Shown piece by piece: positions 1 through 29,143 of a stretch of 46,690 bases of DNA (position 1 is the first letter of the stretch; the number at the start of each line of letters is the position of its first letter). The notes under the pieces were generated by a model that worked only from the letters and a program-made list of their open reading frames with translations, was not told the DNA's origin and did no database searches. The position numbers were made by a program, and so were the translations under genes. The stretch is from Prevotella sp. (GTDB taxonomy: Bacteria > Bacteroidota > Bacteroidia > Bacteroidales > Bacteroidaceae): positions 1 to 46,690 of the forward strand of contig JAFUUL010000010.1 in the NCBI GenBank assembly GCA_017483805.1, in the 5' to 3' direction.

Positions 1-7
1 AAAATTC

Positions 8-38
8 TTTGGCGATTCAGAAATTATGTTTATCTTTG
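8..38 (+). promoter_or_regulatory. Bacteroidetes promoter of cassette A
   Basis: TTTG at 8-11, a 19-nt spacer and TATCTTTG at 31-38 match the Bacteroidetes primary sigma consensus TTTG-N19/20-TAnnTTTG. Transcription should start near 43-46 and run into the long leader. The same promoter occurs base for base at 29063-29093 on the minus strand. Confidence 0.85.
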
Positions 39-45
39 CACCCGA

Positions 46-524
46 AATGCCTGCTCATGAGAGGGTGGGCACGTTAAAACAACATCGATGGAACGAGACC
101 CGAGGGCAGTTGTACGCCCAGTCTCGAAAGGACGTTTTCTTAACGTTACTGTCTGTAATGACAAATCTTGCAAATTTGAATCTTAATGCAGCGGTGATGC
201 AACAGAAGCGTCCGCGTGGGTTGATTTTATATCCTCCTGCGACCAAATTTCCTTTTATATATAATAAGGTGTATGCCACAAGATGGGCATACTATCTTTG
301 CGTATGTATGGGGCAATGGGACAAATCGTGATTTGTCGCATTGTGGTTCAATTGTACATTGTCAATCATCCATTGACGATTGTCAATTGGTCTATGGTCG
401 TGGTGTGTCATATATATCGCTCGGCGTGGGCAGGCTTTACGTTGCTTATCCTCATTAAGGGGCAATGCAAGAGCCTGTCATTAGGGATAAGCGCGGAGAG
501 ATACATACTCCCACGTCTTTTTTG
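46..524 (+). ncRNA. Candidate structured leader RNA, copy A
   Basis: A ~600-nt untranslated region separates the promoter from the start codon at 661. Helices visible here and kept in copy B include CGAGAC/GTCTCG (94-99/121-126) enclosing GGGC/GCCC (104-107/116-119); ACGTT/AACGT just after it; GTATGCC/GGCATAC (271-277/286-292); and the terminal CGTGGG/CCCACG hairpin (425-430/510-515) followed by T6. In the 271-292 helix, copy B has an A-T pair where this copy has G-C, a compensatory change. The AGGCT (432-436)/AGCCT (472-476) and GCTTATCC/GGATAAGC (444-451/485-492) pairings cross each other, so they are either a pseudoknot or alternative folds. It could be a free ncRNA ending at the terminator, or an attenuator or riboswitch-like leader. 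I do not recognise a named RNA family. Confidence 0.5.
423..523 (+). terminator. Terminator-like hairpin inside leader A
   Basis: The outer stem GGCGTGGG/CCCACGTC (one G-U pair) closes a ~80-nt branched domain and is followed at once by TTTTTT (518-523). This is the arrangement of an intrinsic terminator or attenuator, placed ~140 nt before the start codon. It is also present in copy B (28644-28746 minus). Confidence 0.6.
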
Positions 525-660
525 TTTCCGTACGTTTGTGATGTGAGTAATGACCAGCAGGGGAGTGCCGGCCAGCACCTCTGTGTGCCCTCTGCTAAGA
601 AAGATTTTAATCATTTATAAACATTTATTATTCACATTATTAACAAAAACATTTCAAATT

Positions 661-3600
661 ATGAGAAGAAATTTTCTTATTTTGATGTTGCTGTCTCTCT
701 TGCCGCTGGCAGGGTGGGCTGCAGACATTCAGTATTCTTGGACAGTTACTGCGCCAAGTATTACTTATGGAGACACTCAGACCCTTTCGGTTAAACTCGG
801 TACTGAGGACGTTGATGAAGACAAGTATGTCGTAACCTATTTCCATGACAACAATGGTTCAGTAGGTGAAGCAATTACTGGTGCCCTGAGCAAACAGGAT
901 GTTGGTGACTACTGGGTGAAAGTAACTGCAAGTAATACCCAGACAACATGGGAAGGCGAGATTGTAAAGTCTTTCAAGATCAACAAGGGTACTATTACTG
1001 TTAAAGTGAAAAACGCAGACTTCTTCGTAAAGGCCTACAAGGCTGCAGATCCTTCTAACGGTAGCATTGCTTATAACACTACTGATGTTCCTATTACTTT
1101 CTCTAAAACTCCTAACGGTGAGACAATTGCCAACTCGGTGAACACTGGTGCAGTTACCTACTCTTATGGCTCAAACCAGAATGCTAACTTTGACAAGGAT
1201 GGTGCTAACCCTCTGACTACTGGTGACAACGGTTATAAGATTAGTTTTTCAGGTATCACCTTGAAGGAGTCAGCAGAAAAGAATTACAATCTTGTATGGG
1301 AAGACCGTTACATGAAGATTAAGCAGATTGTGTTTGATGTTACAAGCGAATGGGATGGCACAACCGCAAATGCTACTGGTTTCCGCGTAACTTCTGACTA
1401 TGAAAGTGCAACCCCCTTCGATTATAGTGCAGACCATCAGGCTCCTAACTATACGGTTGTTTGGAAGTATGGTACTACTGCAGATGCCAAGATGACTCTG
1501 ACTGCTGGTACTGACTTTATCCTGAACTACAAAAATACTACTTTGAGTACTGACGCTGCCACTACTGCTATCGACGCTGGTGCTTACACTACTACTTTTG
1601 CTAGCAAGTCCAAAGCCAACTTCGTTGCCAACGCAACAGCCAACAATAACAAACTTGGTGATTTCACTATCAGCAAGGGCGCTCTGACCATTATGGTCAT
1701 TCCTCGTACAAAGACATTCGACGGTACTCCATTTAACTCTACTGGCGATGGCGTACAGTTCTACGTTACTGGTTGGGTAACTAAAGATCTGTCGGCTACT
1801 ATCGCGAACAACTATCTTAGTGTCAATTCTTCAGATGTTAGCGCTCTTAAGAAAGATGCCGCTGAATATGCTGTACATGCTACATTGGATAACAATGCAA
1901 CCTATAAGAGAGGTGGTACGAATGTGAATGCAAAAGTTATCGATAACTACGAGCCTAACGTCAGCGTTCCTACGAACTGGACTATCGAGAAGATGGCGTT
2001 CAGCGTGACACCCAAAGCCCAGGCAAAGGGCTATAGCGCAGCAATGCCAGACCTGACTGCTACCGATGCGCTGGTCATTCCTGTTCTTGCTGAGGACGAT
2101 CCTGCTACTACGGATGTAGATGAGACTGTCACCGCTGGTGCTATCACCACAGATGAGGCTACTACTATCAAGAGTGCTCTGAAGTTGGCTTGGGGCGTTG
2201 AGAACCCTGAAGCAGCAGAAGGTGAACAGGTTACACTGAATCAAAACAGTCCCATCGGCACCTATAATAAAGGTATTCTGTTGACAAAACTTCCTGATGA
2301 CAACACTAATGGCAATGGTACAGATAAAATTTCAGATGCTCAGAGAGCAGTCCTGAAGAACTACGAAATCACTCTGAACAATGCTACATTGACTATTAAT
2401 GGTGCAAACTTCACGATTATTCCTCTGGTAGCAGCGACAGAGTATGGCAAGGCTATTGCTCCTTCTGCAGTTGCCTTCAATGAAGCAAATCAGCCTATCG
2501 CTATTAACGAGTCTGCTGTTGCTTATGAGTACTATCAAGGTACAACGAAGTTGTCTGCTGCTCCTACAGCAGTCGGCAGTTACACTGTCAAGATTGTTGA
2601 AAATGACAAGATTGCTAAGGGTAACTACGTTGGTGGTGAAATCACCTACCAGACTGGTAACTTCAATATCACTAAGAAAGCACTGACTCTGACAGTTGCT
2701 AACTTGAGCCTGCACAAGGGTGACACCCGTACCACGCTGCGCAAGTATGCGAAGTTGACCAATGAGAATGGTGTGCTTGACGGAGAGACTATTGAGTATG
2801 AATTCGATTTCCAGGCCGGAACGAACAACCTACAGTTTGGAAATGTTGGCACCGACCACAAGATTACAAGTGATGCTGGTACCTATGCAGGTTCTATCAA
2901 GGCTACCCTGAAGAATGGTACTAACAATAACGGCAACTATGATATTACCTTCACTCCTGGTAATTTGACAATTTTGTCAACCTATGCTCTGTTCATTGAT
3001 GAAGCAGATACTCAGGTTGAAGATAAGATTGTTGATGCCGCTCTGACCTGCACTGGTGACGCTACTATCAAGTACACTGTAACTCTGTCTGATCGCGAAC
3101 TGAAGAAGGATCAGTGGAATGTTATGGTTCTGCCATTCGACGTGAAACCTTTTGACTTCTGTAATGATATCGAATGCTATGCAGTATTCAATACGCTGAA
3201 GTCTGCTAGCGGTGAAAATGTGAAGTTCGGTTTGTGGACCCAGACCATTCCTGCTAACCAGCCGTTCTTGGTTAAGCCTGTTGATAATGTTAAATTCGAA
3301 ACATACGATGCTGACACCGAGACATACACATATGTAGAGTTTGATGATGTTGTCATTAAGAACTCTTCAACAACTCAGAGCGTAGGTGATGCTAAGTTCA
3401 TCGGAACCTACAAGACGCTGCAGATTCCCGCTGCCGAAACTGGTTACAGCAACTGGGCAATGCAGGGCGGTAAGTTCGAGAACATTGGTTCTGATACTCC
3501 TGATCTTGGATTCACTCGCGCTTACCTCCTGCTGAAGACTACTTCTGAGGCACGTATCACTGTCGAGGAGGCTGATGGTAGCACAACGGCTATCAGTGGC

Positions 3601-3726
3601 ATCACAGCCGACGGCGTGGCTGTCGAGGCTGACGGCTGGTACAACCTGAACGGCGTGAAGATGCAGGCTGCACCCACTCAGAAGGGCATCTACATCCGCA
3701 ATGGTAAGAAGATTATTGTTAAGTAA
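661..3726 (+). CDS. Secreted Ig-like/MBG-type repeat protein A
   Basis: A 1021-aa surface or secreted protein. The start at 661 is chosen because it opens a typical signal peptide (MRRNFLILMLLSLLPLAGWA, cleaved after the Ala-rich end); the open frame reaches back to 550 but that part is leader DNA. The body (about residues 25-780) is a string of ~80-100-residue beta-rich repeats with phrases such as YGxAxxP, GxYTxxI and NxxxTxxNATLTI, typical of MBG/Ig-like domains. These are joined by lysine-rich linkers ('ITKKALTLTV', 'INKGTITVKV'). A C-terminal domain (about 795-970) has 'WNVMVLPFDV' and 'IPANQPFLVKP'. The last ~35 residues (GWYNLNGVKMQ...QKGIYIRNGKKIIVK) resemble a Bacteroidetes sorting tail. 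Its function is unknown; adhesion or surface coating is an inference. It lies in a cassette with the leader RNA and the 51-aa peptide downstream. A paralogue with the same signal peptide and C-terminus is at 24928-28425. Confidence 0.85.
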   Translation: MRRNFLILMLLSLLPLAGWAADIQYSWTVTAPSITYGDTQTLSVKLGTEDVDEDKYVVTYFHDNNGSVGEAITGALSKQDVGDYWVKVTASNTQTTWEGEIVKSFKINKGTITVKVKNADFFVKAYKAADPSNGSIAYNTTDVPITFSKTPNGETIANSVNTGAVTYSYGSNQNANFDKDGANPLTTGDNGYKISFSGITLKESAEKNYNLVWEDRYMKIKQIVFDVTSEWDGTTANATGFRVTSDYESATPFDYSADHQAPNYTVVWKYGTTADAKMTLTAGTDFILNYKNTTLSTDAATTAIDAGAYTTTFASKSKANFVANATANNNKLGDFTISKGALTIMVIPRTKTFDGTPFNSTGDGVQFYVTGWVTKDLSATIANNYLSVNSSDVSALKKDAAEYAVHATLDNNATYKRGGTNVNAKVIDNYEPNVSVPTNWTIEKMAFSVTPKAQAKGYSAAMPDLTATDALVIPVLAEDDPATTDVDETVTAGAITTDEATTIKSALKLAWGVENPEAAEGEQVTLNQNSPIGTYNKGILLTKLPDDNTNGNGTDKISDAQRAVLKNYEITLNNATLTINGANFTIIPLVAATEYGKAIAPSAVAFNEANQPIAINESAVAYEYYQGTTKLSAAPTAVGSYTVKIVENDKIAKGNYVGGEITYQTGNFNITKKALTLTVANLSLHKGDTRTTLRKYAKLTNENGVLDGETIEYEFDFQAGTNNLQFGNVGTDHKITSDAGTYAGSIKATLKNGTNNNGNYDITFTPGNLTILSTYALFIDEADTQVEDKIVDAALTCTGDATIKYTVTLSDRELKKDQWNVMVLPFDVKPFDFCNDIECYAVFNTLKSASGENVKFGLWTQTIPANQPFLVKPVDNVKFETYDADTETYTYVEFDDVVIKNSSTTQSVGDAKFIGTYKTLQIPAAETGYSNWAMQGGKFENIGSDTPDLGFTRAYLLLKTTSEARITVEEADGSTTAISGITADGVAVEADGWYNLNGVKMQAAPTQKGIYIRNGKKIIVK

Positions 3727-3745
3727 TCAATCATGACTTGATAAG

Positions 3746-3781
3746 AGTTCGCTCACGCTCGCAAGTGAGTGTGGGCGAACT
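3746..3781 (+). terminator. Hairpin between the repeat protein and the small peptide
   Basis: AGTTCGC (3746-3752) pairs with GCGAACT (3775-3781), with TCAC/GTGA inside. It is followed by TGCTTTC, a weak T-tract, so it may be a partial terminator or an mRNA-stabilising hairpin within the cassette. Confidence 0.45.
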
Positions 3782-3814
3782 TGCTTTCAGTATAACAAAA
3801 AAGAAAGGAAAGAA

Positions 3815-3970
3815 ATGAAGATGAAAGAATATATGGCTCCAGAAATGGATGTCCTTGAGATTAAGATGCAGGCTCAGTTGATGGCCGGAAGTGTGTCAAC
3901 GAGCGATGATGATGATGACGACATCTTTGGTGGCGATAGTGGATATGATCCTAGCAAGCCACTGGACTAA
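3815..3970 (+). CDS. Small acidic peptide of the cassette, copy A (51 aa)
   Basis: A 51-residue open frame starting MKMKEYMAPEMDVLEIKMQA, followed by QLMAGS, a run of six Asp and a Gly/Asp/Pro-rich tail. It has no signal peptide or membrane segment. A relative, MKKEYMMPELDVVELKGQIA then LLAGS and an acidic tail, lies in the same place after the second repeat protein (24716-24838 minus). The shared pattern is KEYMxPExDVxE(I/L)K-x4-LxAGS with a variable acidic tail, like a conserved leader followed by a variable core. A purine-rich stretch (AAGAAAGGAAAGAA) precedes the ATG. Its function is not recognised. Possibilities are a peptide precursor or a small partner of the repeat protein. Conservation of both sequence and position is the main argument that it is real. 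Confidence 0.7.
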   Translation: MKMKEYMAPEMDVLEIKMQAQLMAGSVSTSDDDDDDIFGGDSGYDPSKPLD

Positions 3971-3988
3971 TATGTTGTAATCTTATCC

Positions 3989-4018
3989 TGGGGCGCAGGG
4001 TTCACATCTTGCGCCCCA
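3989..4018 (+). terminator. Perfect 9-bp hairpin after the small peptide
   Basis: TGGGGCGCA (3989-3997) and TGCGCCCCA (4010-4018) form a perfect 9-bp GC-rich stem with a 12-nt loop 18 bases after the stop codon. No clear T-tract follows, so termination may be partial and the next two genes could be read through. Confidence 0.5.
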
Positions 4019-4051
4019 ATATTCAAGATCTGTTAATGAATTAATCAAGCA

Positions 4052-4444
4052 ATGAGAAAAATACTGGACGAGTACCTGGAAGAGAATGGAATCAGAGCGC
4101 AAATAGATGGAAATGAAGTCACGTTTAGTGTAAACCAACTTAATTTCCTTTTTCGCTCATTTCCTGATGACCCGTTCTTCATCCAGATGTTTTTGCCCAA
4201 AATAGAAGACTATGAAGTAAAAGAGCGGAGAGACATCATTGCTGATATTAACAGACGTTTCAAAGTGGCCAAGATAGTGGAAATAGACGAAAGGCCATGG
4301 ATAGTCGCTGACTGCTTTGTCTATTCCAAAGAAAACGGACATGCTCTTATTGGAAGACTCATCAAGTTATTGACCGATGTGATAAATGAATATAGAGAGA
4401 ATGTAACTAATTCTGTGACTTCAGAAAGCAAAGACGAACAATGA
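4052..4444 (+). CDS. YbjN-like small cytoplasmic protein (hypothetical)
   Basis: A 130-aa soluble protein without a signal peptide or membrane segment. The opening 'ILDEYLEENGIRAQIDGNEVTF' followed by an alpha/beta pattern ('FFIQMFLPKI', 'VKERRDIIADINRRFKVAKI', 'RPWIVADCFV') resembles YbjN / type III secretion chaperone-like folds. This is a resemblance by eye, not a firm family call. It overlaps the next gene by 4 bp (ATGA), so the two are probably co-translated. It sits downstream of cassette A, while cassette B has no such pair. The DNA is AT-rich compared with the polysaccharide genes that follow. Confidence 0.6.
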   Translation: MRKILDEYLEENGIRAQIDGNEVTFSVNQLNFLFRSFPDDPFFIQMFLPKIEDYEVKERRDIIADINRRFKVAKIVEIDERPWIVADCFVYSKENGHALIGRLIKLLTDVINEYRENVTNSVTSESKDEQ

Positions 4445-4962
4445 GTACAACAATCCATCTTGAGCACGATAAACCTAGTGATGAAGTGGTAGGGAAGAAG
4501 ACTCACCTTGCCCACTTCTGGTGGGTTATTTGTTTGCTTTTACTCATCATAGTTATACTTGCTGCCCTACTCTGCACCAATATACAGATGTTCGAACACA
4601 GGATAATGACATTCCTGTCATTTACAGCGACGCTGTTGTCTATCGTCTTGTCAATATTTGCTATCATGTACTCTTTCTACTCCATGAAGGAATCCTCCCA
4701 ACAGTGGAATGCAGTGAAAACGGCAGTAAAGTCGATAGAGGCCTATACAGATATTCTGAGCAAAAGTACACAGCAATTGGTAGAACAGGTAATCAAGATC
4801 AATAGAGATCTAGGGTCTATGCAGGGAATGATGGGAGCATCAAATGAGATACCTAAAAAGGATAATCCCGGCTCAATAGAAAATGTCATAAGTAATACTC
4901 AGAGTCAAGCAAGAAGAACTGCGTTCTTCAGTGATAGGAGATCCTTGCAGAACAAAGATTAG
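4441..4962 (+). CDS. Two-helix membrane protein with a coiled-coil-like tail
   Basis: A 173-aa protein that I do not recognise. Residues ~28-48 and ~56-78 are hydrophobic helices separated by a short loop. Residues ~80-130 are polar and probably helical ('ESSQQWNAVKTAVKSIEAYTD', 'STQQLVEQVIKINRDLGSM'), like the cytoplasmic tail of small sensor-like or scaffold membrane proteins. The last 40 residues are rich in Asn, Ser and Arg and look disordered. It is translationally coupled to the YbjN-like gene (4-bp overlap), which suggests a soluble partner plus a membrane anchor. The function is unknown. Confidence 0.6.
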   Translation: MSTTIHLEHDKPSDEVVGKKTHLAHFWWVICLLLLIIVILAALLCTNIQMFEHRIMTFLSFTATLLSIVLSIFAIMYSFYSMKESSQQWNAVKTAVKSIEAYTDILSKSTQQLVEQVIKINRDLGSMQGMMGASNEIPKKDNPGSIENVISNTQSQARRTAFFSDRRSLQNKD

Positions 4963-5124: not shown

Positions 5125-5263
5125 CTTGTCGGCACTTGTCCCCTAAGTAGGGGAAAGTAAATGTTTTAAATTGTTAATAAAATGACACATTCGGCCGCTG
5201 GCTCGTGAGAGTAGGTAGGCCCGCAAAAAACGAAGTCGCCGGCCCGTGAGGGTCGGCGATCTT
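5125..5263 (+). repeat. Rpn 3'-flank repeat, left copy (inverted to 24390-24525)
   Basis: About 140 bp, closely matching the reverse complement of 24390-24525. Read on the plus strand it holds a CCCC/GGGG mini-hairpin near 5150, the invariant AAATGTTTTAAATTGTTAATAA, then two small hairpins with GTGA loops: CTC-GTGA-GAG and CGCCGGCCC-GTGA-GGGTCGGCG. On the minus strand it follows the remnant of an Rpn gene, just as the right copy follows the intact gene. Confidence 0.85.
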
Positions 5264-5303
5264 TATCTTACAAGGACAGAAATTTCCGTAATTACCGTAA
5301 TGG

Positions 5304-5366: not shown

Positions 5367-5369
5367 AAG

Positions 5370-6592: not shown

Positions 6593-7529
6593 GCCCATCT
6601 ACTGCAACCAGGAAGAGGAAACCCGCTGTGGCTACACGATTACGGCGGAGATGAAGCGGGTGTGGAATGTAGAGATTGACCTGCTGCTCAGGCTGCTGGA
6701 GGTCTGCGAGCGTCACGGCCTGCGCTGCTGGGTGGCCGACGGCACGCTGCTGGGGGCCGTGCGGCACGGGGGCTTTATCCCCTGGGATGACGACATCGAC
6801 GTGTGTATGCTGCGAACGGACTATGACCGCCTGCTGCAACTGGGCGATGAGTTCAGCCATCCCTACTTCCTGCAGTCGGCCTACTCTGACCGCGACTACT
6901 ACCGGGCCCACGCCCAGTTGCGCAACTCGCAGACTGCGGGCATCAGGCCGTCGGACGCCTTCCGCCCCTTCAACCAGGGCATCTTCATCGATATTTTCCC
7001 CATGGATGCCGTGCCGGCCGACCAGCAGCAGTGCCAGGCCATGCTGAAGCGCATCCACAAGATAACACACTTCCTGAAGGCCAAGGACACGCCGATACTG
7101 GCTTCGGGCCGACTGGGGCTGGCGGTGCGCAAACTGAGGTGCCGCTGGGCCGTCAGCCGCCGGGGCTGGCAAACCATCTACAGCGAGGTGGACGACCTGC
7201 TGCGCTCCACGCCGCTGAGCGAAAGCCAGTATGTGGCCGAACTGGGATTCAGCGGCACGGAGAACCTGCTGGACAAGCACATATTCGACGGAACGGTGAT
7301 GATGCCCTTCGAGCAGGTGATGGTGCCGGTGCCGCAGGGCTACGAGCAGTTTCTGCGCACGCAGTATGGCGACGACTATATGACGCCGCGCCAGGTGGGC
7401 ACAGCCCACGGCGAGGTGGTGCTCGACGCCGACCGCAGTTACGAGGAGTTGCTGCCCGAGGTGCGCCGCAGTTACCGGCGTTCGGCCCTGAGCAGGCTGA
7501 TGAAGAAGATAGGGAGGAAGCGGTCATGA
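6573..7529 (+). CDS. LicD-family phosphotransferase 2
   Basis: A 318-aa protein and a second LicD-family member, about 50 residues longer than its neighbour. The signature GTLLGAVRHGGFIPWDDDID is at residues 57-76, followed by 'GIFIDIFPMDAVPADQQQ' near 130. A basic C-terminus (SRLMKKIGRKRS) could touch the membrane. It overlaps licD1 by 20 bp and the kinase gene by 4 bp (ATGA), so the three are translated together. Two diverged LicD copies side by side suggest two acceptor sites or two donors on the same glycan. The start at 6573 (MTTKANKP) gives an N-terminal extension of ~25 residues before the conserved domain. Confidence 0.88.
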   Translation: MTTKANKPIYCNQEEETRCGYTITAEMKRVWNVEIDLLLRLLEVCERHGLRCWVADGTLLGAVRHGGFIPWDDDIDVCMLRTDYDRLLQLGDEFSHPYFLQSAYSDRDYYRAHAQLRNSQTAGIRPSDAFRPFNQGIFIDIFPMDAVPADQQQCQAMLKRIHKITHFLKAKDTPILASGRLGLAVRKLRCRWAVSRRGWQTIYSEVDDLLRSTPLSESQYVAELGFSGTENLLDKHIFDGTVMMPFEQVMVPVPQGYEQFLRTQYGDDYMTPRQVGTAHGEVVLDADRSYEELLPEVRRSYRRSALSRLMKKIGRKRS

Positions 7530-8233
7530 AGATAGTGGTAGCACCTGAGTACGAAGCGCTGGCAAGCGAGATAGCACGACTGCCCCTGCTGATGGAGGAG
7601 GGACAGGGCGAGACGGTCTACGACGGCCGCAACAGCGTGGCGCGCTTCATCGTGGGCGGACGGAGCGTCATGGTGAAGCGCTTCAAGCGTGTCAACCTGG
7701 TGCAGCAGGTGGTCTACACATTCTTCAGGAAGACCAAGGCGGAGCGGGCCTACCGCTATGCCGAGGAGTTCAGCCGGAGGGGCATCCAGACGCCGCAGCG
7801 CATCGCCTATATGGAGTGCCGGAAGTGGGGACTCTTCACCGTGGGCTATTTTGTGAGTGCCGAAGCGGAGGGCACGGGGTGCCACGAACTGCTGAGGGAG
7901 GTGGAGGTCTTCGACAGAGACCTGGCCGATGCCGTGGCGGGACAGGTGCTGCTGATGCACAGCCGCGGGGTGCTGCACGGCGACCTGAACCTGACGAACT
8001 TCCTGTGCGCGAAGGAGGATGACGGCTATCACTTCACGATGATAGACATCAACCGCTCGAAGTTCACCGCCGGCATGCCGGCCGACGAGGCGTGCCTGAA
8101 GAACCTGGTGCGACTGACGCACCGGCGCGACCTGTACGACTGCTTAGTGAGATGCTATGCCCGCCGACGCGGCTGGGACGAGGATGCCACGGCAGCCAAG
8201 GCACTGCGGCTGCTCGAACGGTTTGAGAAATAG
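7526..8233 (+). CDS. LPS sugar kinase (Kdo/heptose kinase, WaaP/KdkA-like)
   Basis: A 235-aa protein-kinase-fold enzyme of the lipopolysaccharide kinase group, which phosphorylates core sugars (Kdo or heptose) of LPS from ATP at the inner membrane. The ATP-binding Lys is probably in 'VMVKRFKRVN' (residues 48-57). The catalytic loop HGDLNLTNFL is at 151-160 (Asp153, Asn158), and the metal-binding Asp is in 'TMIDINRSKF' (Asp174). It starts inside the end of licD2 (ATGA overlap) and ends 4 bases from the convergent stop codon of the GT2 gene. With two LicD proteins it forms a glycan-phosphate decoration module. The exact sugar acceptor is not known. Confidence 0.8.
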   Translation: MKIVVAPEYEALASEIARLPLLMEEGQGETVYDGRNSVARFIVGGRSVMVKRFKRVNLVQQVVYTFFRKTKAERAYRYAEEFSRRGIQTPQRIAYMECRKWGLFTVGYFVSAEAEGTGCHELLREVEVFDRDLADAVAGQVLLMHSRGVLHGDLNLTNFLCAKEDDGYHFTMIDINRSKFTAGMPADEACLKNLVRLTHRRDLYDCLVRCYARRRGWDEDATAAKALRLLERFEK

Positions 8234-8237
8234 GGCC

Positions 8238-9110
8238 TCACAAGACGGGCCGGAAGGTGCCACGCACCACATACCAGAGGGCCTTCAGCCGACCGCGCAG
8301 CACATGCCAGCGCAGGCGGGAACCCGTGGCGGGGCTGTCGATGAGTTGCGGCTCAAAGTCTCTGCCGCGGTAAGTGTAGAGCCGGCGGAAGGTGGACGAC
8401 GTCAGTCCCCACTTCATGAGAAACTGCATCTGTCCGCAGTTCTTCTTCACCTTACCAGTAGACTTCGACTCGAAATGGTAGACGCGACTGGCCGACAGGC
8501 CCTTCATGTAGCGTATGCCGCAGAGCCACAACTTGGCCGTGAAGTCTGGGTCGCTGTACATGCCCGGAGTCAACTCTACGCTGTAGCCGCCCACCAGGTC
8601 CCAGATGTCGCGATGGACCACGTTGGGGGGCATGGTGGCCCCCATCCAGTCGCTGATGCTCAGTTGGCGGTATTCGGCCAGCAGTTTCTGTTCCTGAAAA
8701 TTCTCCACGCTGTCCCCATAGTCGGCAACGATGATGGAGTCGGCCGGCGTGTGGGGCTGTATGGTGGTGGCCGAGAGGAAGAAGCGGTTGTCCGGCAGCC
8801 GGTCAATCTCGTCAGCCAGAGCCGTGTCCCAGCCGGGCAGCACATACATATCGTCGTTGAGGAAGCAGATGTAGTCGGTCTGCACCTTGGTGCGCATCAT
8901 GTTCATCGACAGGCAGACACCCACATTGCGCTCAGTGTAGGTGTAGTCCAGTCCCTCTGACCGCACCCATTCCAGTGTGCCGTCGGTGCCCTCGTTGACG
9001 TGGACAATGATCTGGTGCTGGCAGGCGGAGTGGCGCCTGATGCTCTCCACGCAGAGTTGCAGGAAGCCGAGGTTGTTCCACGAAGGTATGAAGATGGAGA
9101 ATGGTTTCAT
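8238..9110 (-). CDS. Glycosyltransferase family 2
   Basis: A 290-aa GT-A enzyme. The N-terminus MKPFSIFIPSWNNLGFLQLC is the usual GT2 opening (nucleotide-sugar binding), with 'YTERNVGVCLSMN' near residue 59 and the metal-binding 'FLNDDMYVLPGW' (Asp pair near residues 86-87). 'DPDFTAKLWLCG' near residue 187 resembles the region that carries the catalytic base. It probably adds a sugar to the lipid-linked glycan on the cytoplasmic face. It is the last gene of the minus-strand envelope operon, 27 bases after the GT4 gene, and stops 4 bases from the convergent kinase gene with no visible terminator between them. The sugar specificity is unknown. Confidence 0.85.
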   Translation of the reverse strand: MKPFSIFIPSWNNLGFLQLCVESIRRHSACQHQIIVHVNEGTDGTLEWVRSEGLDYTYTERNVGVCLSMNMMRTKVQTDYICFLNDDMYVLPGWDTALADEIDRLPDNRFFLSATTIQPHTPADSIIVADYGDSVENFQEQKLLAEYRQLSISDWMGATMPPNVVHRDIWDLVGGYSVELTPGMYSDPDFTAKLWLCGIRYMKGLSASRVYHFESKSTGKVKKNCGQMQFLMKWGLTSSTFRRLYTYRGRDFEPQLIDSPATGSRLRWHVLRGRLKALWYVVRGTFRPVL

Positions 9111-9137
9111 CGTCTTGAATGTCTTTTTTGATGGTGG

Positions 9138-10127
9138 TTATTCGGATATGTGCTGGAGTATTCGGTCGGCCAGCAGGCGCCAGTCGAACTGCTCCACATG
9201 GCGGCGTGCAGCGGTGCCCAGCCTGCGGCGCAGCGCCTCGTCGCGGTAGAGCCGGGCTATGTGGCGCTCGAAGCAGAAGACCCAGCGGGCCGAGCGGATG
9301 CCATTCGCGCCGTCGACCAGCAGGTCCTTGGTGCCGGCACTGGTCGACACCACGGGCAGGGCGCAGGCCATGGCCTCAGCCACGGTGTTGTTCCAACCGG
9401 AGTAGCGCGGATTCTCGGCCGACACGAAGCAGTCGGCACGGTTGTAGAGTTCGGAATTGCGGTCGAAGGGGTGGTTCTGCACGAAGTCGAACGGACACTT
9501 GCAGGTGAAGGCGTCGAGACGCTGCTGCCACTTGGCGTCCTGCGCCGTGTCGAAGAGCAGCAGGCGGATGTTGTAGCCTTTCTTATAGAGGTGCTCGCAG
9601 GCCTTCACCACATACTTAGTGCCCTTCACCCGCTCGGCTATGCGGCCATAAGCCATGACGACGAAGGGGCGCTCGGCGGGAACCTGATAGTCGGTCTTGG
9701 GCTGATAGTTGGAGAGCGTGACGCCTCCCACAGCCAGGAAGGCCTCACGGCCAAAGTGGCGGCGGTCGTAGTCGTAGACATTGGTGGAGCAGGCAAAGAC
9801 CTCGATCTCGGGGTGGCGCATGATGTCGCGCAACTGCTCCTTGATGCGTACAGGGTAGAATATCTTGTGGCGGGCATGCGATGTGAGCATCATCGGCACA
9901 TAACCGGTGGTGGTGGTCCACAGGGCATCCAGTTCGTCGTCGGCCAGACGGTCGAAAGTGGCCATGCGGCCCCGGAAGTCAAACCACGTGGGGGCGGCGC
10001 CATCTGGCGTATAGATGCACACGTCGTGGCCTTTCTCCACGAAGATGTTTCCCAGTTCCAAGAAGCGCTTCACACCGCCATACAGTTTGGTGTGAGGCAG
10101 CAGTACACCTAACTTCATCTGATTCAT
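9138..10127 (-). CDS. Glycosyltransferase family 4 (GT-B)
   Basis: A 329-aa GT-B retaining glycosyltransferase. The N-terminal domain starts with 'MKLGVLLPHTKLYGGVKRFLEL' (glycine-rich acceptor loop). The C-terminal domain has 'FVVMAYGRIAERVKGTKYVV' and the GT4 donor-binding motif 'SGWNNTVAEAMACALPVVST' with its Glu. It is cytoplasmic or peripheral to the membrane. ATG at 10127 gives MNQMKLG; ATG at 10118 (MKLG) is equally plausible. The gene follows the galactofuranosyltransferase-like gene by 4 bases and is in the same operon. Confidence 0.85.
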   Translation of the reverse strand: MNQMKLGVLLPHTKLYGGVKRFLELGNIFVEKGHDVCIYTPDGAAPTWFDFRGRMATFDRLADDELDALWTTTTGYVPMMLTSHARHKIFYPVRIKEQLRDIMRHPEIEVFACSTNVYDYDRRHFGREAFLAVGGVTLSNYQPKTDYQVPAERPFVVMAYGRIAERVKGTKYVVKACEHLYKKGYNIRLLLFDTAQDAKWQQRLDAFTCKCPFDFVQNHPFDRNSELYNRADCFVSAENPRYSGWNNTVAEAMACALPVVSTSAGTKDLLVDGANGIRSARWVFCFERHIARLYRDEALRRRLGTAARRHVEQFDWRLLADRILQHISE

Positions 10128-10131
10128 CGCA

Positions 10132-11187: not shown

Positions 11188-11189
11188 AT

Positions 11190-13276: not shown

Positions 13277-13301
13277 ACGGCGTTCGTATTTCTGTTGTGT
13301 A

Positions 13302-15092: not shown

Positions 15093-15143
15093 TCTTCTCT
15101 CATCACTCATCACTCATCACTTTTCACTTTTCACTTATCACTC

Positions 15144-18376: not shown

Positions 18377-18396
18377 CTTAAAATTCGAATTTGGGT

Positions 18397-18405
18397 GCAA
18401 AGTTA
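18397..18405 (-). promoter_or_regulatory. -7 box of the miaB / envelope operon promoter
   Basis: On the minus strand this reads TAACTTTGC, matching the Bacteroidetes -7 element, 21 bases before the miaB ATG. No clear TTTG is seen at -33 because a TTAAGAGTTAAG simple repeat occupies that place. It is divergent from the yitT promoter. Confidence 0.6.
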
Positions 18406-23349: not shown

Positions 23350-23380
23350 TTGCACATTCCAGATATTTTCCGTAATTTTG
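23350..23380 (+). promoter_or_regulatory. Promoter of the Rpn-family nuclease gene
   Basis: TTG (23350-23352), a 20-nt spacer and TAATTTTG (23373-23380) match the Bacteroidetes promoter. It lies just upstream of ATG 23399 and rules out the upstream TTG as a start codon. Confidence 0.7.
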
Positions 23381-23398
23381 CTGCAAAGGATTATTCAA

Positions 23399-24370
23399 AT
23401 GTGGGACAACGAATACATACCATTCGACTGGGCCATCAGGCGCATCCTGCGCGACAAGGCCAACTCCGGTGTGCTCGAGGGACTGATGACCGTCCTGCTG
23501 GGCCAGCCCGTGAAGATCGTGGAGATACTCGAGAGCGAGAGCAACCAGGACTCGCGCGAGGACAAATACAACCGTGTGGACGTGAAGGCCAAGATGAGCG
23601 ACGGCGAGATTGTCATCGTTGAGGTGCAGTTGGGCCGTGAGCGCCACTTCATGCAGCGCATCCTCTTTGGCGTGTCGAAGGCCGTCACCGAGCAGTTGCA
23701 GGTCAAGCAGGACTACGAGAACATACGCAAGGTCTACTCCATCAGCGTGCTCTACTTCGACCTGGGCTCCGGCGATGACTACGTCTACCACGGCAAGACC
23801 ACGTTCAAGGGAATGAACAACCCCGACTCCGTGCTGCAGTTCACGCCGCGCGAGGAAGCCATCGTGAAGGACGACACTAAGCGGCCCGTGTCGCCCGACG
23901 AAGTCTATCCCGAGTATTTTCTGCTGCGTGTCAACCAGTTCAATGCCGTGGCCAAGACGCCCATCGAGGAGTGGTTTGAGTATCTGAAGGACGGCATCAT
24001 CAAGCCCGACACCACCACGCCCGGCCTGCAGGAGGCCCGCGAGAAACTGGACTACATGAAGATGACACCCCAGGAGCGCCATGCCTACGAGGACTACATG
24101 GTCAGCGTCCACGCCGCCAAGGATGTCTACGACACCGCTGTGGCCGAAGGACGAGCCGAAGGACGCGCTGAAGGTCTGGCCAAAGGTCTGGCCAAAGGAC
24201 GAGCCGAAGGACGAGCCGAAGGACGAGCCGAAGGTGAGGCCAGAGGCATAGCCAAAGGCCGTGAGGAAGAGCGCAGAGAGAATGCCCGCAGGATGAAAAA
24301 GGACAATATGCCTGCAGAACTGATTGCGAAATATACTGGACTCACAGTGGAAGACATTGAGAAACTATAG
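23399..24370 (+). CDS. Rpn-family PD-(D/E)XK nuclease / transposase-like protein
   Basis: About 323 aa from ATG 23399 (MWDNEYIPFDWAIRRILRDK). The N-terminal ~240 residues are the PD-(D/E)XK nuclease domain of the Rpn / PF12784 group. The active-site pattern is RVDVKAKM...GEIVIVEVQLG (Asp61, Glu75, Gln77), followed by 'MQRILFGVSKAVTEQL'. Rpn proteins promote RecA-independent recombination and are widespread mobile-like genes. Residues ~253-300 are tandem AEGRAEG / AKGLAKG units, a family trait that varies by slippage. The C-terminus MPAELIAKYTGLTVEDIEKL is the usual targeting-like helix. A truncated copy of the same C-terminus lies at 5304-5366, and both copies are followed by the same ~140-bp repeat. 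Confidence 0.88.
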   Translation: MWDNEYIPFDWAIRRILRDKANSGVLEGLMTVLLGQPVKIVEILESESNQDSREDKYNRVDVKAKMSDGEIVIVEVQLGRERHFMQRILFGVSKAVTEQLQVKQDYENIRKVYSISVLYFDLGSGDDYVYHGKTTFKGMNNPDSVLQFTPREEAIVKDDTKRPVSPDEVYPEYFLLRVNQFNAVAKTPIEEWFEYLKDGIIKPDTTTPGLQEAREKLDYMKMTPQERHAYEDYMVSVHAAKDVYDTAVAEGRAEGRAEGLAKGLAKGRAEGRAEGRAEGEARGIAKGREEERRENARRMKKDNMPAELIAKYTGLTVEDIEKL

Positions 24371-24389
24371 CGGATTCGCCGCAAACAGA

Positions 24390-24525
24390 AGATCGCCGAC
24401 CCTCACGGGCCGGCGACTTCTGTTTTTGCGGGCCGGCCTACTCTCACGAGCCAGCGGGCCGAATGTGTCTTATTAACAATTTAAAACATTTACTTACCCC
24501 TAAAGGGGGAAAAGTGTCGACAAAG
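24390..24525 (-). repeat. Rpn 3'-flank repeat, right copy
   Basis: Starts ~20 bases after the Rpn stop codon and is the inverted partner of 5125-5263. The GATCGCCGACC...GGCGAC hairpin, the CTCTCACGAG hairpin, the AACAATTTAAAACATTT block and the CCCC/GGGG hairpin are all conserved. Differences are mostly in loops and short gaps. Confidence 0.85.
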
Positions 24526-24573
24526 CGATGTTTCGCTCATCCTTGCATCGTCATACGATGGCTTTGCGTTTTT

Positions 24574-24616
24574 GTGGAAAAAGGTGGGCTCTGACGCTGG
24601 GGCCTGCGCCCACCTT
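24574..24616 (-). terminator. Terminator of cassette B
   Basis: On the minus strand AAGGTGGGC (24616-24608) pairs perfectly with GCCCACCTT (24589-24581), with an 18-nt loop, and is followed by TTTCC. It lies ~100 bases after the small-peptide stop and before the Rpn repeat. Confidence 0.65.
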
Positions 24617-24715
24617 CTTCATTTTCATATCCAAGGGAGAGGTTCCTGACTCTTTAGTTCATAAAAGCCTGTCCATGAGAATTTGCCGAGCCATGAGCCT
24701 TTCCCCTCTTGGTTT

Positions 24716-24838
24716 TTACCATCCCTCTGAATCGTTGGGATCAGTAACAGAACCCTCTCCTTCACTTCCTGCCAGCAGTGCAATCTGGCCTTTCAGTTCA
24801 ACGACGTCCAGTTCGGGCATCATATATTCCTTTTTCAT
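24716..24838 (-). CDS. Small acidic peptide of the cassette, copy B (40 aa)
   Basis: A 40-residue open frame, MKKEYMMPELDVVELKGQIA, then LLAGSEGEGSVTDPNDSEGW. It aligns with the 51-aa peptide of cassette A (3815-3970) over residues 1-25: KEYM-PE-DV-E(L/I)K and L(L/M)AGS. The tails share only acidity and low complexity. An in-frame ATG at 24862 would add eight residues (MNKTLNKE). It lies 89 bases after the repeat-protein stop on the same strand. The role is unknown; the conserved front and variable tail resemble a precursor peptide, but no modifying enzyme or transporter is adjacent. Confidence 0.7.
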   Translation of the reverse strand: MKKEYMMPELDVVELKGQIALLAGSEGEGSVTDPNDSEGW

Positions 24839-24927
24839 TTCTTTATTCAAAGTTTTGTTCATATTTAGTTATTGAAACTTGCCCATGCCCACGATGAGCA
24901 TGAGCAAGTATTCATAGGTCAGGTTGA

Positions 24928-27900
24928 TTACTTAATAATAACCTTCTTACCATCCTTCACGTAGATACCCTTCTGAGTGGGAGCATCCTGCAGTTTCAGA
25001 CCATCGATGGTGTACCAGCCCTTAGCAGCCAGTTTTGCATTCTCCTCACCGAACGAAACGATATCGTTGATAGCGGTAGTAGTTCCGTCAGCCTCCTCGA
25101 AGATGATGACAGGAGCCTGAGCGGTGCCATTGTAGTCGAGATATGCCTCAAAGGGCTTCACAGTATAATTGTTGTCCTGAGCATGCCTCCAACTGGTATT
25201 TACATTGACAGCAAACTTCTTCTGCTTTCCGTCAGTAGGAGTAAGAATCACGTCCTTATAGCAGCCCACGAACTTCATACCAGTCTCACCGATAGTCTGC
25301 TCTACCAGACCATCTGCATTTGCAGCGTTCACGATGGTCTTCTTGTGAGTAGCTTCACCGAACGTGAGAGTCTTACCATCAAGAGAGTTCAAAGTCTTCA
25401 TTGCGAACGGAGTGTTGGCAGGAATATTACCCATATGGAGTTTGAACTTAACAGTACCTTCTTGTGAGTTGTCTTCGTCGATGATGTTCACAACTGCATA
25501 GCCGACAACGTCCAGCTTAGAAAGCTCTGCTACAGAAGTAGCGAACGGAAGCACATAGGTATTCCACTTCTCAGCAGCAAGAGCAACAGTGCCATTACGC
25601 ATAGCAGGCTTAACGCTTACAGTCGTCAGAGCAACATTGTCGTACTCCTTAATCTTAGCCAGAGGAGCATTGGCTTCAGTGCCATTAGCATCGAAGGTGT
25701 AAGTTTCAGGAGTACCCGAGAACTTAACATCAGCAGCCTCAGCGGTTACTATATAGTTGGTGTTGCGGTCCTGGTTTGTAGAGAGGAACTGGTCATTCAG
25801 AGTGATGACGAACTGGCCGGGGTTGCCGAGCGTAGCCTTCTCACCTTCATATACCCAGTCGATAGACTTGATGAAATCCTTCTTCCAGAACTCAGCAGAT
25901 GTATTTACCTGAGGCATATTAGCTGTAGCCAGAGCGGTCTCTGTCTCATCACCAGTACGATACAGTTTTACCCATGCGTTGGTAGCATCCCAATCAGCAG
26001 TAGCAATCTGTGCGGCGGTAGGAGTGGTGTACTCAGATGTGCCATCAACATATGCCTCTGCCGTCTGAGGCTGAACCTGCAGCGTCACTGCGAAAGGATT
26101 GATGGTGAATGAACCATCCTCGAACTGGATATTCGTGTAGGTCTGGCTGGTTGCAGTACCTGCAATAGTGATATCATAGGTGCCGGCATTGGTGGGATCC
26201 GTTGTCTGTGCGGCATCCTTATACTTAAAGGTAATACCGCTGAGGTTAATCAATGTCTTCAGATCATTAGCACTGGGAGTGCCTTCTCCTACATAACCAC
26301 TCTTCACCTCAAGTTGAGCAGCCTTCGTATCATCAGATGTATTAATGTTAGCAATAGCGAAGTTCACGCTGCCGTAAGTCTGAGCTTCGGGGTTCTTGAC
26401 CTTCAGCACCAGAGGAGTAGTAGAGGCCTTGATATTCAGTTTGCCTCTTGAATCACCAGCAGGTGTCGTGATGGTATAGTTGCCAGCAGAAGTGCCAGCA
26501 GCATTCGTAATGTTCACATCCAGATAGTGATCACCAACGCCCTCGCCAGTCTCTGCTCTTGCGATAGTGATGCCAGTGATGACTCCATCAGCAGGCTTGT
26601 TCTCAGTGCCAGCCTTGATGTCAGAGCCAACAAGACCTGAGTAAACCAGTTCGAACGTAGGATCGGCAGTACCGACAATCTTCTCAGTATCTTTAGCCTT
26701 CACGCTCAGATCGGCCTTAGCAATGCTGAAGTTCAGAGTCTTAGTATCCTTATAGTTTCCAATACCCTCAATGATAACAGTACCGCCCTTTGCGACAGTC
26801 GTGTTGTCATGCTCGGCATCACCATAAGTAACCTTATAGTCGGTAGACGCCAGTTTAGCAGCATTTGCATCGTTTGTCCACTTAATCAAATTGTCAGTCG
26901 TAGGCTCATACTTTGCGCCTTTATACACCTGATTAGCATGGATAGCAGGATCGAAATAGAAACCGCTTATGCTCTTGCGGGTAATCGTGAAGTAAACTGT
27001 CTTTGAGCCCGTGTAGTTACCATTGGCCTTAGCAGTAAATGTCACTGAAGCCTTCTGCGCGTCAGTTGCATCGGCAGGTGTTGCGTTAGTATTGTTATCA
27101 CCATAGCTCACGGTGTAGTCATAGGCCGTGCTGTTATTCACGTATTTTGCCAAAGTGATTCCACCATACTTGACAACGCCGGTTGTCGGCTGGTACTTAG
27201 CATTCTTAAACTCAACCTCAGAATCAATACCCGTAATATCAAGTTCAGACATATTCTTCTGAGAAATCGTGAACTCAATGGTCTTGGTATTGTTCAGATA
27301 GGTACCCAGACCGGTTATGGTAATCTTAGCCTTGCCTTTTGTGTTTGTGCTGTTACTAGTAGCCAGGATGTTGTCTTCATAAGAGACAGTGTAGTCGCTA
27401 CCTTCATTAAGAGTCAGATCCTCACCAATCTTCACTGTGGAAACAACTGGCTTCACTTGAGAACCAGTGTAAACGTATGTGCCAGTAGCCTCTGTGCCAG
27501 ACACAGCGACACCATCGATAGTCACCACGGCATTGTCCAGGCTTGTGCCCTTAATCAGGAAGGTAGCCGTTGCAGTACCTTCGAAGTTGCCCTTACCAGT
27601 CACCTTTGCAGTGTAAGTACCCTTCTGGATAAGGTTTTCGGCAGCAACCAGGTCGTCGCTGGAGTCATAAATCTGGAGGGCATTGTAATCATTAGCAGTC
27701 AAATTGTAGGCATTGTCAGAACTCTTGAGCGACGTGACGGTAGGATAAGTCACAGGAGTCGTCTCGTTGACATAGTTCTCTGCAGTAGAACTCAGAGTGA
27801 GAACGAAGCCGTTGATACTCTTCTTACTAATCGTGAATGTCTTCGAAATCTTGTTATTGGCAGTAGTTGACAGGTCAAAGTTGGTGTCATCAGTTACCTT

Positions 27901-28425
27901 CACGGTTACTTTGGCCCCATCACCTTGATTGGTGTTTGCGCTCCAACTGTCAACGGTGTAAAGATTTGCAGGCACAACGAAACTACCTTTCTTCACCTTA
28001 AAGGCAGGCTGGAGTGCAGAGCCAGTATAGGTGTAAGAATCGCCATTGTCGAAAACGACCTCAAAGCCGTCATTGAAGGTTGCCTTGGTAATCTCCAAAG
28101 TTGCGTTGGAGTTGATGATGACAGCGTCTTCATCACCCATAGAAGTCCAGTTGTCCGGCCATTCGCCATCCCATACCAGCGTATAGGAATATTCACCTAC
28201 AGTTTCACCCGTGTTACCTGCATTACGCTTGATTGTCAAGTGACTGGCAAGTTCAGACTTTTTTCCTCCAGCAGGAGCGCCAGACATACCAAACGTCAGG
28301 TTCACATCTGCATCAGCCGTACCATAGACTTTGCTGATGGAACTGGGAGTGACATAAACGTCACCAGCCCATCCTGCCAACGGCAAGAGAGACAGCAGCA
28401 TCAAAATAAGAAAATTTTTTCTCAT
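24928..28425 (-). CDS. Secreted Ig-like/MBG-type repeat protein B
   Basis: A 1165-aa secreted protein, the paralogue of that at 661-3726. The signal peptide MRKNFLILMLLSLLPLAGWA is the same but for one residue, and the DNA is nearly identical there, yet the body diverges at once. Repeats at about residues 110-620 have the phrase pattern YTGSxxxPxxxVK, DYTVSYxDN, KAxITITGxGxYxxxKTxxFTI (~90-100 residues each, at least five). An MBG-type unit follows ('IVGTADPTFELVYSGLVGSD'). The C-terminal domain (about 990-1120) has 'WNTYVLPFATSV' and 'IPANTPFAMKT'. The tail GWYTIDGLKLQ...QKGIYVKDGKKVIIK matches protein A and is like the tail of the GH27 enzyme. It probably reaches the surface via T9SS or a related route. 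The leader RNA lies upstream and the 40-aa peptide downstream. Confidence 0.85.
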   Translation of the reverse strand: MRKNFLILMLLSLLPLAGWAGDVYVTPSSISKVYGTADADVNLTFGMSGAPAGGKKSELASHLTIKRNAGNTGETVGEYSYTLVWDGEWPDNWTSMGDEDAVIINSNATLEITKATFNDGFEVVFDNGDSYTYTGSALQPAFKVKKGSFVVPANLYTVDSWSANTNQGDGAKVTVKVTDDTNFDLSTTANNKISKTFTISKKSINGFVLTLSSTAENYVNETTPVTYPTVTSLKSSDNAYNLTANDYNALQIYDSSDDLVAAENLIQKGTYTAKVTGKGNFEGTATATFLIKGTSLDNAVVTIDGVAVSGTEATGTYVYTGSQVKPVVSTVKIGEDLTLNEGSDYTVSYEDNILATSNSTNTKGKAKITITGLGTYLNNTKTIEFTISQKNMSELDITGIDSEVEFKNAKYQPTTGVVKYGGITLAKYVNNSTAYDYTVSYGDNNTNATPADATDAQKASVTFTAKANGNYTGSKTVYFTITRKSISGFYFDPAIHANQVYKGAKYEPTTDNLIKWTNDANAAKLASTDYKVTYGDAEHDNTTVAKGGTVIIEGIGNYKDTKTLNFSIAKADLSVKAKDTEKIVGTADPTFELVYSGLVGSDIKAGTENKPADGVITGITIARAETGEGVGDHYLDVNITNAAGTSAGNYTITTPAGDSRGKLNIKASTTPLVLKVKNPEAQTYGSVNFAIANINTSDDTKAAQLEVKSGYVGEGTPSANDLKTLINLSGITFKYKDAAQTTDPTNAGTYDITIAGTATSQTYTNIQFEDGSFTINPFAVTLQVQPQTAEAYVDGTSEYTTPTAAQIATADWDATNAWVKLYRTGDETETALATANMPQVNTSAEFWKKDFIKSIDWVYEGEKATLGNPGQFVITLNDQFLSTNQDRNTNYIVTAEAADVKFSGTPETYTFDANGTEANAPLAKIKEYDNVALTTVSVKPAMRNGTVALAAEKWNTYVLPFATSVAELSKLDVVGYAVVNIIDEDNSQEGTVKFKLHMGNIPANTPFAMKTLNSLDGKTLTFGEATHKKTIVNAANADGLVEQTIGETGMKFVGCYKDVILTPTDGKQKKFAVNVNTSWRHAQDNNYTVKPFEAYLDYNGTAQAPVIIFEEADGTTTAINDIVSFGEENAKLAAKGWYTIDGLKLQDAPTQKGIYVKDGKKVIIK

Positions 28426-28643
28426 AATTGAATTGTTTTTAATTTGTTAATAAAATGATTAATTGATAAAAATGATATCTTGTCTTCTTTGTTTCTCAAC
28501 AATTGCTTTGAGATGAGCACACAGCGGTGCTGGCCGAAACTCCCCTGTCGGTCATCAATTAAGAGTTAAGAGTTAAGAATTAAGAGAATTAGCACTTCCC
28601 TTTACTTCTGCTCTACTCCACTCTTCGTTTAATTTTTCGGAAA

Positions 28644-28746
28644 CAAAAAAGACGTGGGAGTATGTCTCTTGCGTGCTTATCCCAGTGTGAAGGCTCTCGC
28701 ATTGCCCCTTGAGAAGGATAAGCAACGTCGAAGCCTGCCCACGCCG
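28644..28746 (-). terminator. Terminator-like hairpin inside leader B
   Basis: GGCGTGGG (28745-28738) pairs with CCCACGTC (28658-28651), followed on the minus strand by TTTTTT (28650-28645). Loop bases differ from copy A, but the stems and T-tract are unchanged. Confidence 0.6.
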
Positions 28747-29055
28747 TGATAATATATACACACACCACGGCATAACACACCCTATGGCATATATACGCAA
28801 AAAGAGTACACCTATCTTAGGGTATACACCTTATTATATATATAAAGGGATGTTAGCCGCAGGAGGATATAAAATCAACCCACGTAGACGCTCTCTGCTG
28901 CATTACCGCTGTCTCAAGTTTCAAATTTGCGAGATTTTCCACACACAGACAGGTAACGTTTGAAAACGTCCTTTCGAGACTGGGCGTACAACTGCCCTCA
29001 GGTCTCGTTCCATCGATGTTAATTTAACGTGCCCACCCTCTCATGAGCAGGCATT
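28644..29055 (-). ncRNA. Candidate structured leader RNA, copy B
   Basis: Second copy of the structured leader. All helices noted in copy A can be formed: CGAGAC/GTCTCG with inner GGGC/GCCC, ACGTT/AACGT with a shortened loop, GTATACC/GGTGTAC (minus strand 28827-28821 and 28812-28806), GCTTATCC/GGATAAGC, and CGTGGG/CCCACG followed by T6. The GTATACC helix changes one G-C pair of copy A to A-T and another to a G-U wobble, keeping the pairing. The ~80-base block of copy A at about 320-400 is absent, so that part is dispensable. No known RNA family is recognised. Confidence 0.5.
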
Positions 29056-29062
29056 TCGGGTG

Positions 29063-29093
29063 CAAAGATAAACATAATTTCTGAATCGCCAAA
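29063..29093 (-). promoter_or_regulatory. Promoter of cassette B
   Basis: Same bases as 8-38 in inverted orientation: TTTG (29093-29090), 19 nt, TATCTTTG (29070-29063). It reads toward the second repeat protein. Confidence 0.85.
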
Positions 29094-29143
29094 GAATTTT
29101 AAGAAAAAATGCGCAATTTTTTGTGATTTGGAAGGTATTAGCG

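Follow-up and report, generated by a model that had tools for sequence, protein, structure and literature searches.

A zippered leader RNA with a terminator-like stem, a putative transcription attenuator, precedes secreted repeat-protein genes and many other genes in Bacteroidales

The 46,690-nucleotide (nt) stretch of Prevotella sp. DNA analysed here (contig JAFUUL010000010.1, hereafter the window) carries two units of the same composition, which raise the question of whether a leader RNA, a secreted protein and a small peptide belong to one system or whether the leader is something more general. The original prediction saw in them a duplicated inverted cassette, and this was borne out: promoter, structured leader, secreted protein and small peptide are found at both ends of the region, on the plus strand in unit A and on the minus strand in unit B. 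Our analysis indicates that the leader represents a structured, cis-acting type of leader RNA found in the order Bacteroidales and uncatalogued in Rfam, although we do not claim that it is unpublished. As judged from its anatomy, covariation and distribution, this class combines a zippered fold, a terminator-like stem (P1) and an open reading frame (ORF) behind it.

In unit A, the leader runs on the plus strand from about position 42, its inferred start, to the end of a U run at 523, whereas in unit B promoter and leader together occupy 28426–29100 on the minus strand; the leaders measure ~480 and ~415 nt, respectively. They are 88.5% identical across 314 nt and 84.4% across a further 135 nt, both fold better than all of 100 shuffles (positions 38–540, z −7.6; 28660–29063, z −4.9), and both are matched by R1, a covariance model of the leader 3' domain whose matches span 101–113 nt (421–531, E 2.5e-33; 28637–28747, E 7.3e-28). 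Folding and identity thus support the conserved structured 5' RNA that had been predicted. The idea of a special A/B pair stands only in part: the two units are real, but they are not unique, as the 3' domain has 24 full-length matches in the same genome. The comparisons below are based on 128 leaders, left from 132 R1 hits after removal of a truncated one (L025), a near-identical contig copy (L022), a second entry for the L070 locus (L029) and L051; the last was dropped as a repeat of L032, itself absent from the set, so that this leader is missing by oversight. Nor does the set include L028, the twin of L027, or L074, which is near-identical to L073. The alignment holds 127 of the 128, one having a short 5' side.

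Across the 127 leaders, covariation calculated without any assumed structure is highest in 12 column pairs (38 to 19 standard deviations, sd), all of them inside three helices, H1, H2 or H3; ten of them are base pairs, 82–100% paired, and the other two are off-register neighbours within H3. H1 and H2 use all four Watson–Crick types, and H3 is a loop–loop contact, CUUCGCA/UGCGAAG or UCUCGCA/UGCGAGA, of which unit A has its own matched variant, UCUUGCA/UGCAAGA. Further elements, namely P0, P1, P2, a small hairpin and an X–Y pairing, emerge from a mechanical search for helices. The sequences thereby show a 5' and a 3' hairpin domain that zip via the long-range helices H2, H3 and H1 (~20 base pairs, bp) into a compact, pseudoknotted fold, with the 3' domain forming the inside of the 8-bp stem P1, which is followed by a U run and thus resembles a terminator hairpin. 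In the case of unit A, the 5' zipper domain lies at 158–188 (H2 ATGACA, 158–163; H3 loop TCTTGCA, 166–172; H1 CTTAATG, 182–188) and the 3' zipper domain at 443–493 (P2, 443–452/484–493; H1 CATTAAG, 453–459; H3 loop TGCAAGA, 466–472; H2 TGTCAT, 476–481), between the 5' strand of P1 at 423–430 and its 3' strand CCCACGTC, which together with the ensuing TTTTTT covers 510–523. The 5' strand of P0 (GCCTGCTC, 49–56) pairs with 428–437, the X element (AAAGGACGTTT, 127–137) pairs with Y (207–213) but might pair with the terminator 3' strand in its place, and a conserved GGGAG is found beyond the terminator at 561–565, all on the plus strand. On the minus strand, unit B has its 5' zipper at 28912–28943 (H2 TGTGGAA, H3 loop TCTCGCA, H1 CTTGAGA), its 3' zipper at 28674–28724 (P2, H1 TCTCAAG, H3 TGCGAGA, H2 TTCACA) and the P1 3' strand (28658–28651) with the U run (28650–28645) at 28645–28658.

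The structure without P0 was scored in 60 tool-aligned leaders (85 of the 127 lie in a length range that excludes most repeat-protein leaders; 75 were printed and 60 used). Of 2797 cells, 98.3% are paired, and both sides change in 22 of 47 pairs, giving 325 double-change cells as against 87.7 in shuffles; none of 500 shuffles reaches any of five measures, and sliding the partners by 1–3 columns yields at most 54 double-change cells. These 60 leaders overlap with those from which the helices were first derived. A held-out set was taken from 80 named loci, 65 of which were used, 11 being dropped as members of the training set and 4 for too little upstream sequence. Here H1 is 80.3% paired (48.1% when shuffled) and H2 83.3% (53.9%), H3 reaches 99.3% (92.4%) and P1 97.4% (94.1%), and H1, H2, H3, the hairpin, X–Y, P1 and P2 all exceed the best of 100 row shuffles. 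P1 cells are paired to 100% in 23 leaders and to 99.7% in 80. The loops contain invariant and nearly invariant residues, which is compatible with a riboswitch aptamer.

The source genome, a draft of 199 contigs (91.7% complete, 7.2% contamination), has 24 full-length R1 places and one truncated one. Two pairs among the 24 lie on near-identical contigs (C145/C169 and C141/C197 of genome G000), whose near-identical leaders and genes perhaps reflect strain redundancy in the draft. With the source genome included throughout, R1 matches 202 of 299 genomes of the genus (E ≤ 0.01), 160 of 251 of the family, in 23 of 30 genera (E ≤ 0.001), and 33 of 247 of the order, in 27 of 174 genera; these counts are lower bounds, as strict filters were applied and each genome contributed 12 to 15 candidates for scoring. 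In the phylum draw, 3 of 247 genomes match, namely the source genome and two genomes from another order that match weakly (E 2.1e-4 and 4.2e-4). A pattern for the 3' domain found at least 116 stretches in named genomes, 80 of which were taken, and the named matches listed include Prevotella metagenome-assembled genomes (MAGs), Paraprevotella clara, Xylanibacter rarus, Bacteroides bouchesdurhonensis, Parabacteroides and Muribaculaceae. One exact leader pattern had no match in viral contigs. Against Rfam 15 at gathering scores, the window returns tRNA only, and three named relatives return a single match, a TPP riboswitch located elsewhere on L175; scans at looser E-values (window 1–700; L060, 1100–1800) gave nothing above the gathering score and only hits at the level of chance, the best being L10_leader with 24.6 bits against a required 44.

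The genes behind the leader bear on the opening question. The secreted repeat-protein family, recognised by a strict signal-peptide pattern, follows in 23 of the 128 leaders and was not recognised behind the other 105, among which near relatives of the family such as L086 are counted and two of which end at a contig edge without an ORF; as the leaders are best-scoring hits, one or a few per genome, this proportion is not an unbiased rate. The small peptide lies downstream in 12 of these 105, directly after the leader in six (L016, L052, L058, L081, L083 and L142). The proposal of leader, repeat protein and peptide as one system is therefore not supported, and for the leader it is largely the case that the parts occur mostly apart from each other. 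Among 104 first genes (of 108 listed, the source genome excluded), 66 Pfam and 154 NCBIfam families are found at E ≤ 0.001; within the top 25 of each list, the commonest is the BspA-type leucine-rich repeat (LRR), with 15. The CXXX-repeat radical SAM target TIGR04117 occurs in 6 and the maturase family TIGR04115 in 2 of these genes, DUF2971 in 2 and AbiH in 1, and PADLOC matched PDC-S31 and AbiH among eight scanned. By eye, Tat-like, Cys-rich peptide precursors stand behind seven leaders (L057, L063, L068, L073, L098, L108 and L127), and L066–L068 have radical SAM proteins downstream.

A promoter-like box TA(2–3 nt)TTTG is found in 123 of 127 leaders, TTTT occurs within 12 nt after P1 in 119 of 127, and 104 of 128 have GGG(G/A)AG or GGGAG within 118 nt, compared with 11% in shuffles. 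By a mechanical pick on the same strand, an ORF start lies no further than 320 nt past the R1 match in 118 of 126 leaders, and at 40–80 nt in 66 of them. Promoter, 5' domain, a P1 stem with the 3' domain inside it, U run, GGGAG and gene follow each other as in an attenuator, with a terminator-like stem and U run between promoter and gene; we consider the leader to be probably a cis-acting transcription attenuator. According to this model, the zipper and a signal (a metabolite, a protein or the rate of folding) would or would not stabilise P1, and this would determine whether transcription ends behind the leader or continues into the gene. A candidate antiterminator, in which X pairs with the terminator 3' strand, is 98.9% paired in the 60 leaders.

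Several observations weigh against the attenuator and its fold. All double changes in the antiterminator fall in one pair among the 60 leaders, and in the held-out 65 it does not rise above shuffles (87.6%; shuffle mean 86.2%, maximum 87.9%). In the same 65, P0 is weakly upheld (74.6%; shuffle maximum 72.7%), and both a 5' helix, Q (72.4%; shuffle mean 73.3%), and a CUCCC–GGGAG pairing (75.1%; shuffle maximum 75.1%) fail. The held-out set was fetched with a pattern that fixes one H3 strand and part of P2, which makes its values for these less independent than those for H1 and H2, and at 16 sd or less many strongly covarying column pairs are not base pairs and instead track a subfamily. TTTT is missing in 8 of 127 leaders, the ORF counts lack an opposite-strand control, and the metabolic theme usual for riboswitch genes does not appear in the top 25 families per list of the 104 first genes. 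Two of the 80 named loci carry non-Bacteroidales labels (L203, Clostridia MAG; L208, Lachnospiraceae MAG); their contigs are short, and perhaps misbinned. Finally, the whole case is drawn from sequence, from which control of downstream expression by the RNA appears plausible.

The same anatomy has been weighed under other explanations. The terminated RNA could itself be the product, a free noncoding RNA (~415–480 nt in the window) acting in trans or as a scaffold, with the gene read by leakage only. The conserved terminator-like P1, the large pseudoknotted fold and the unrelated downstream genes would all suit this role, as would, if it were the same RNA, the Bacteroidetes candidate HMP2_1881, expressed at all 13 places found according to the accessible part of its report (PMC8040213). 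We nevertheless regard it as unlikely, given the mechanically picked ORF start on the same strand no more than 320 nt downstream in 118 of 126 cases and the conservation in 104 of 128 leaders of a GGGAG that is present only in read-through RNA. This GGGAG, lying past the U run, might in turn point to a post-transcriptional leader, in which P1 and GGGAG control translation start or messenger stability and the U run is incidental; the leaders lacking TTTT fit such a role, but its presence after P1 in all the others makes us think it distinctly improbable. A different view would make the leader mainly a homology tract, promoter and leader being shared by gene conversion for the shuffling of surface proteins and the fold being secondary. 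Segments of one copy are indeed closest to different copies, the 3' domain of L083 is identical to that of L084 while its 5' code does not fully match, and several units are followed by a repeated 3' element and by Rpn-type nuclease genes. However, hundreds of compensatory cells keep the helices across genera and unrelated genes, for which a homology tract has no need, and this leaves it very little credit.

Returning to the attenuator, its zipper has a further property. The sequence of H1 and H2 appears almost free and yet matched within the molecule, so that by complementarity nearly every copy has a private code, which would prevent the sibling leaders of a cell from zipping to one another. 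In the source genome, where 18 of the 24 places were compared, without two twins and four distant copies, the 18 leaders have 18 different codes; each pairs with itself at a mean of 9.83 of 10 positions (15 of 18 perfectly) and with its siblings at 5.51, and 2 of the 306 combinations across leaders pair as well as self. Across all 127 leaders, 92.9% of cells are paired within leaders and 51.8% across them, with perfect pairing in 76 of 127 and 53 of 16002, respectively, and in 19 other genomes the values are 94.3% (n = 49, 34 perfect) and 51.5% (n = 95, 1 perfect). No identical 5' codes occur in 48 pairs from these 19 genomes. L083 and L084, both of genome G107, are the pair with identical 3' domains mentioned above, and L083 is likely to be a gene-conversion chimera.

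These codes could have diverged through selection for difference between siblings. Among 16 of the 18 leaders, copies with a core difference below 6% (12 pairs) differ at 54% of code sites, as against 15% in the upstream spacer and 31% in the post-terminator stretch. Among 15 of them, codes differ at 0.54–0.59 of sites and synonymous codons of the adjoining signal peptide at 0.20–0.25, the code being higher in 99 of 105 pairs. On these grounds we suggest, tentatively and with more doubt than confidence, that each gene copy bears a private self-complementary code that is selected to differ and serves as transcript identity, so that only its own halves, or copies of the same transcript, zip and set the switch. 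It is quite conceivable, if still short of probable, that there has been no selection for difference and that these are ordinary free helices which only look fast next to flanks homogenised by gene conversion, an estimate that concerns this question and not the attenuator. If only one half were converted, the pairing would be lost and the copy purged, L083 is a likely chimera, and the post-terminator sequence is likewise divergent (means 0.31–0.44); the contrast between code sites and synonymous codons speaks the other way.

A comparison with known systems helps to place the leader. Like riboswitches and terminator-type attenuators, it is a structured 5' leader at a promoter, with a terminator-like stem, a U run and a same-strand ORF; unlike them, it lacks an Rfam match at gathering score and a metabolic theme, and has two domains zipped by variable helices. 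Control at the level of the leader is also known for surface genes of Bacteroidales, as the NusG-like UpxY controls Bacteroides capsule leaders; that system is protein-based and tied to capsule operons, and UpxY-type genes were not searched for here. The ornate RNAs OLE, ROOL and GOLLD, in the accessible part of their description, are large and pseudoknotted with covarying kissing contacts, one of which, in GOLLD, was proved to be between molecules (PMC12286853). The leader is likewise large and pseudoknotted, with contacts seen by covariation; as described there, those RNAs are homo-oligomers, whereas the leader has many paralogues per genome and is known from sequence alone. Since the GOLLD contact proved intermolecular, pairing between two copies of one transcript, in a homotypic RNA complex, may also take place here by analogy, and the self-matching codes are compatible with a homo-oligomeric RNA. 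HMP2_1881 is presented in the accessible part of its report as an expressed 108-bp Bacteroidetes structured-RNA candidate near radical SAM genes (PMC8040213). It resembles the 3' domain in length, phylum and radical SAM neighbours; should the two be the same, going by that description the 5' half, the zipper and the wider gene set would set the leader apart.

Multi-copy structured leaders usually mark a signal important to the cell. The leader described here is common among gut Bacteroidales, those of Prevotella type included, and some of the genes downstream may serve in meeting hosts, rivals and phages. If the leader is a switch, knowledge of its signal would give access to a regulon of accessory genes, and private codes, if true, would allow surface, peptide and defence genes to be expressed independently despite a common machinery.

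In the source genome, the RNA has expanded mostly alongside the secreted repeat-protein family with its linked acidic peptide. Most copies there read into proteins that start with M(R/K)(R/K)NFLILMLLSLLPLAGWA or a near variant, with variable bodies and a common C-terminus. Upstream of leader A, the promoter (TTTG ... TAtcTTTG, 8–38, plus strand) is of the Bacteroidales type. Protein A (1021 amino acids, aa; 661–3726, plus strand) has the signal peptide MRRNFLILMLLSLLPLAGWA and shares with protein B (1165 aa; 24928–28425, minus strand) 20 of 23 signal-peptide residues and a conserved C-terminal domain of ~220 aa, 32% identical by BLASTP, while BLASTP gives no convincing alignment of their middles. 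The MBG/Ig-like repeats announced for both are present in B as MBG_2 (E 8.8e-10, 39.5 bits, cut-off 25), but A has nothing above the Pfam cut-off. The common C-terminal domain (3019–3723 and 24931–25635) has a predicted beta-rich fold (predicted local distance difference test, pLDDT, 83.7) and no clear match in Pfam or the PDB.

A hairpin at 3745–3782 (plus strand; 16-bp stem, minimum free energy of the folded 88-nt gap −31.0 kcal/mol) separates protein A from its acidic peptide (51 aa; 3815–3970, plus strand; peptide-family match E 1.4e-17), and of 15 units folded, 13 have a terminator-like hairpin in this position. Peptide B (24716–24838, minus strand; E 3.7e-15) has 40 aa, or 48 from an upstream ATG. 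Neither window peptide matches an NCBIfam or Pfam family at E ≤ 1, so no catalogued precursor of ribosomally synthesised and post-translationally modified peptides was matched. The conserved peptide front of the original prediction is real but loose, only Y6 being invariant among 17 peptides. The linkage of a peptide to a diverse family of secreted proteins, in turn, is supported: of 16 complete repeat proteins (three from other genomes included), 15 are followed by a peptide belonging to one loose family, and the sixteenth, frame-broken, has one after its second ORF. The parts do occur separately: in C21 the leader runs directly into the peptide, C106 has a repeat-family protein with the promoter stretch and no leader, and in C196 and C197 the leader precedes unrelated proteins. 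Of six genomes tested that have no leader match, five have 1–5 peptide matches, mostly weak (best E 1.8e-5), and one has none; leader-rich genomes vary from 1 or 2 (G265, G083) to 9 (G166) and 18 (G315).

Further features flank the two units. Both are followed by a conserved ~110-bp stretch (5151–5275 and 24389–24499) that contains a terminator-like hairpin; it has matches of at least 85 nt at 14 of 20 other loci of the genome. Downstream of unit B there is an Rpn-family nuclease gene (TIGR01784, PDDEXK_2; 23378–24370), and Rpn-type genes or remnants occur at 4 of the 20 other loci (L009, L010, L015 and L019). Beyond peptide A, two small ORFs are found at 4052–4962, the second resembling SLATT-type membrane proteins with a score below the cut-off only. 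Ten ORFs were tested between the units and eight have Pfam families, among them a Kdo/WaaP-type kinase and polysaccharide-type genes, which we do not link to the units. Within 7031–18400, the kinase gene is on the plus strand, and glycosyltransferases, a UDP-galactopyranose mutase, a sulfatase, an ABC transporter and a radical SAM/TRAM protein are encoded on the opposite one.

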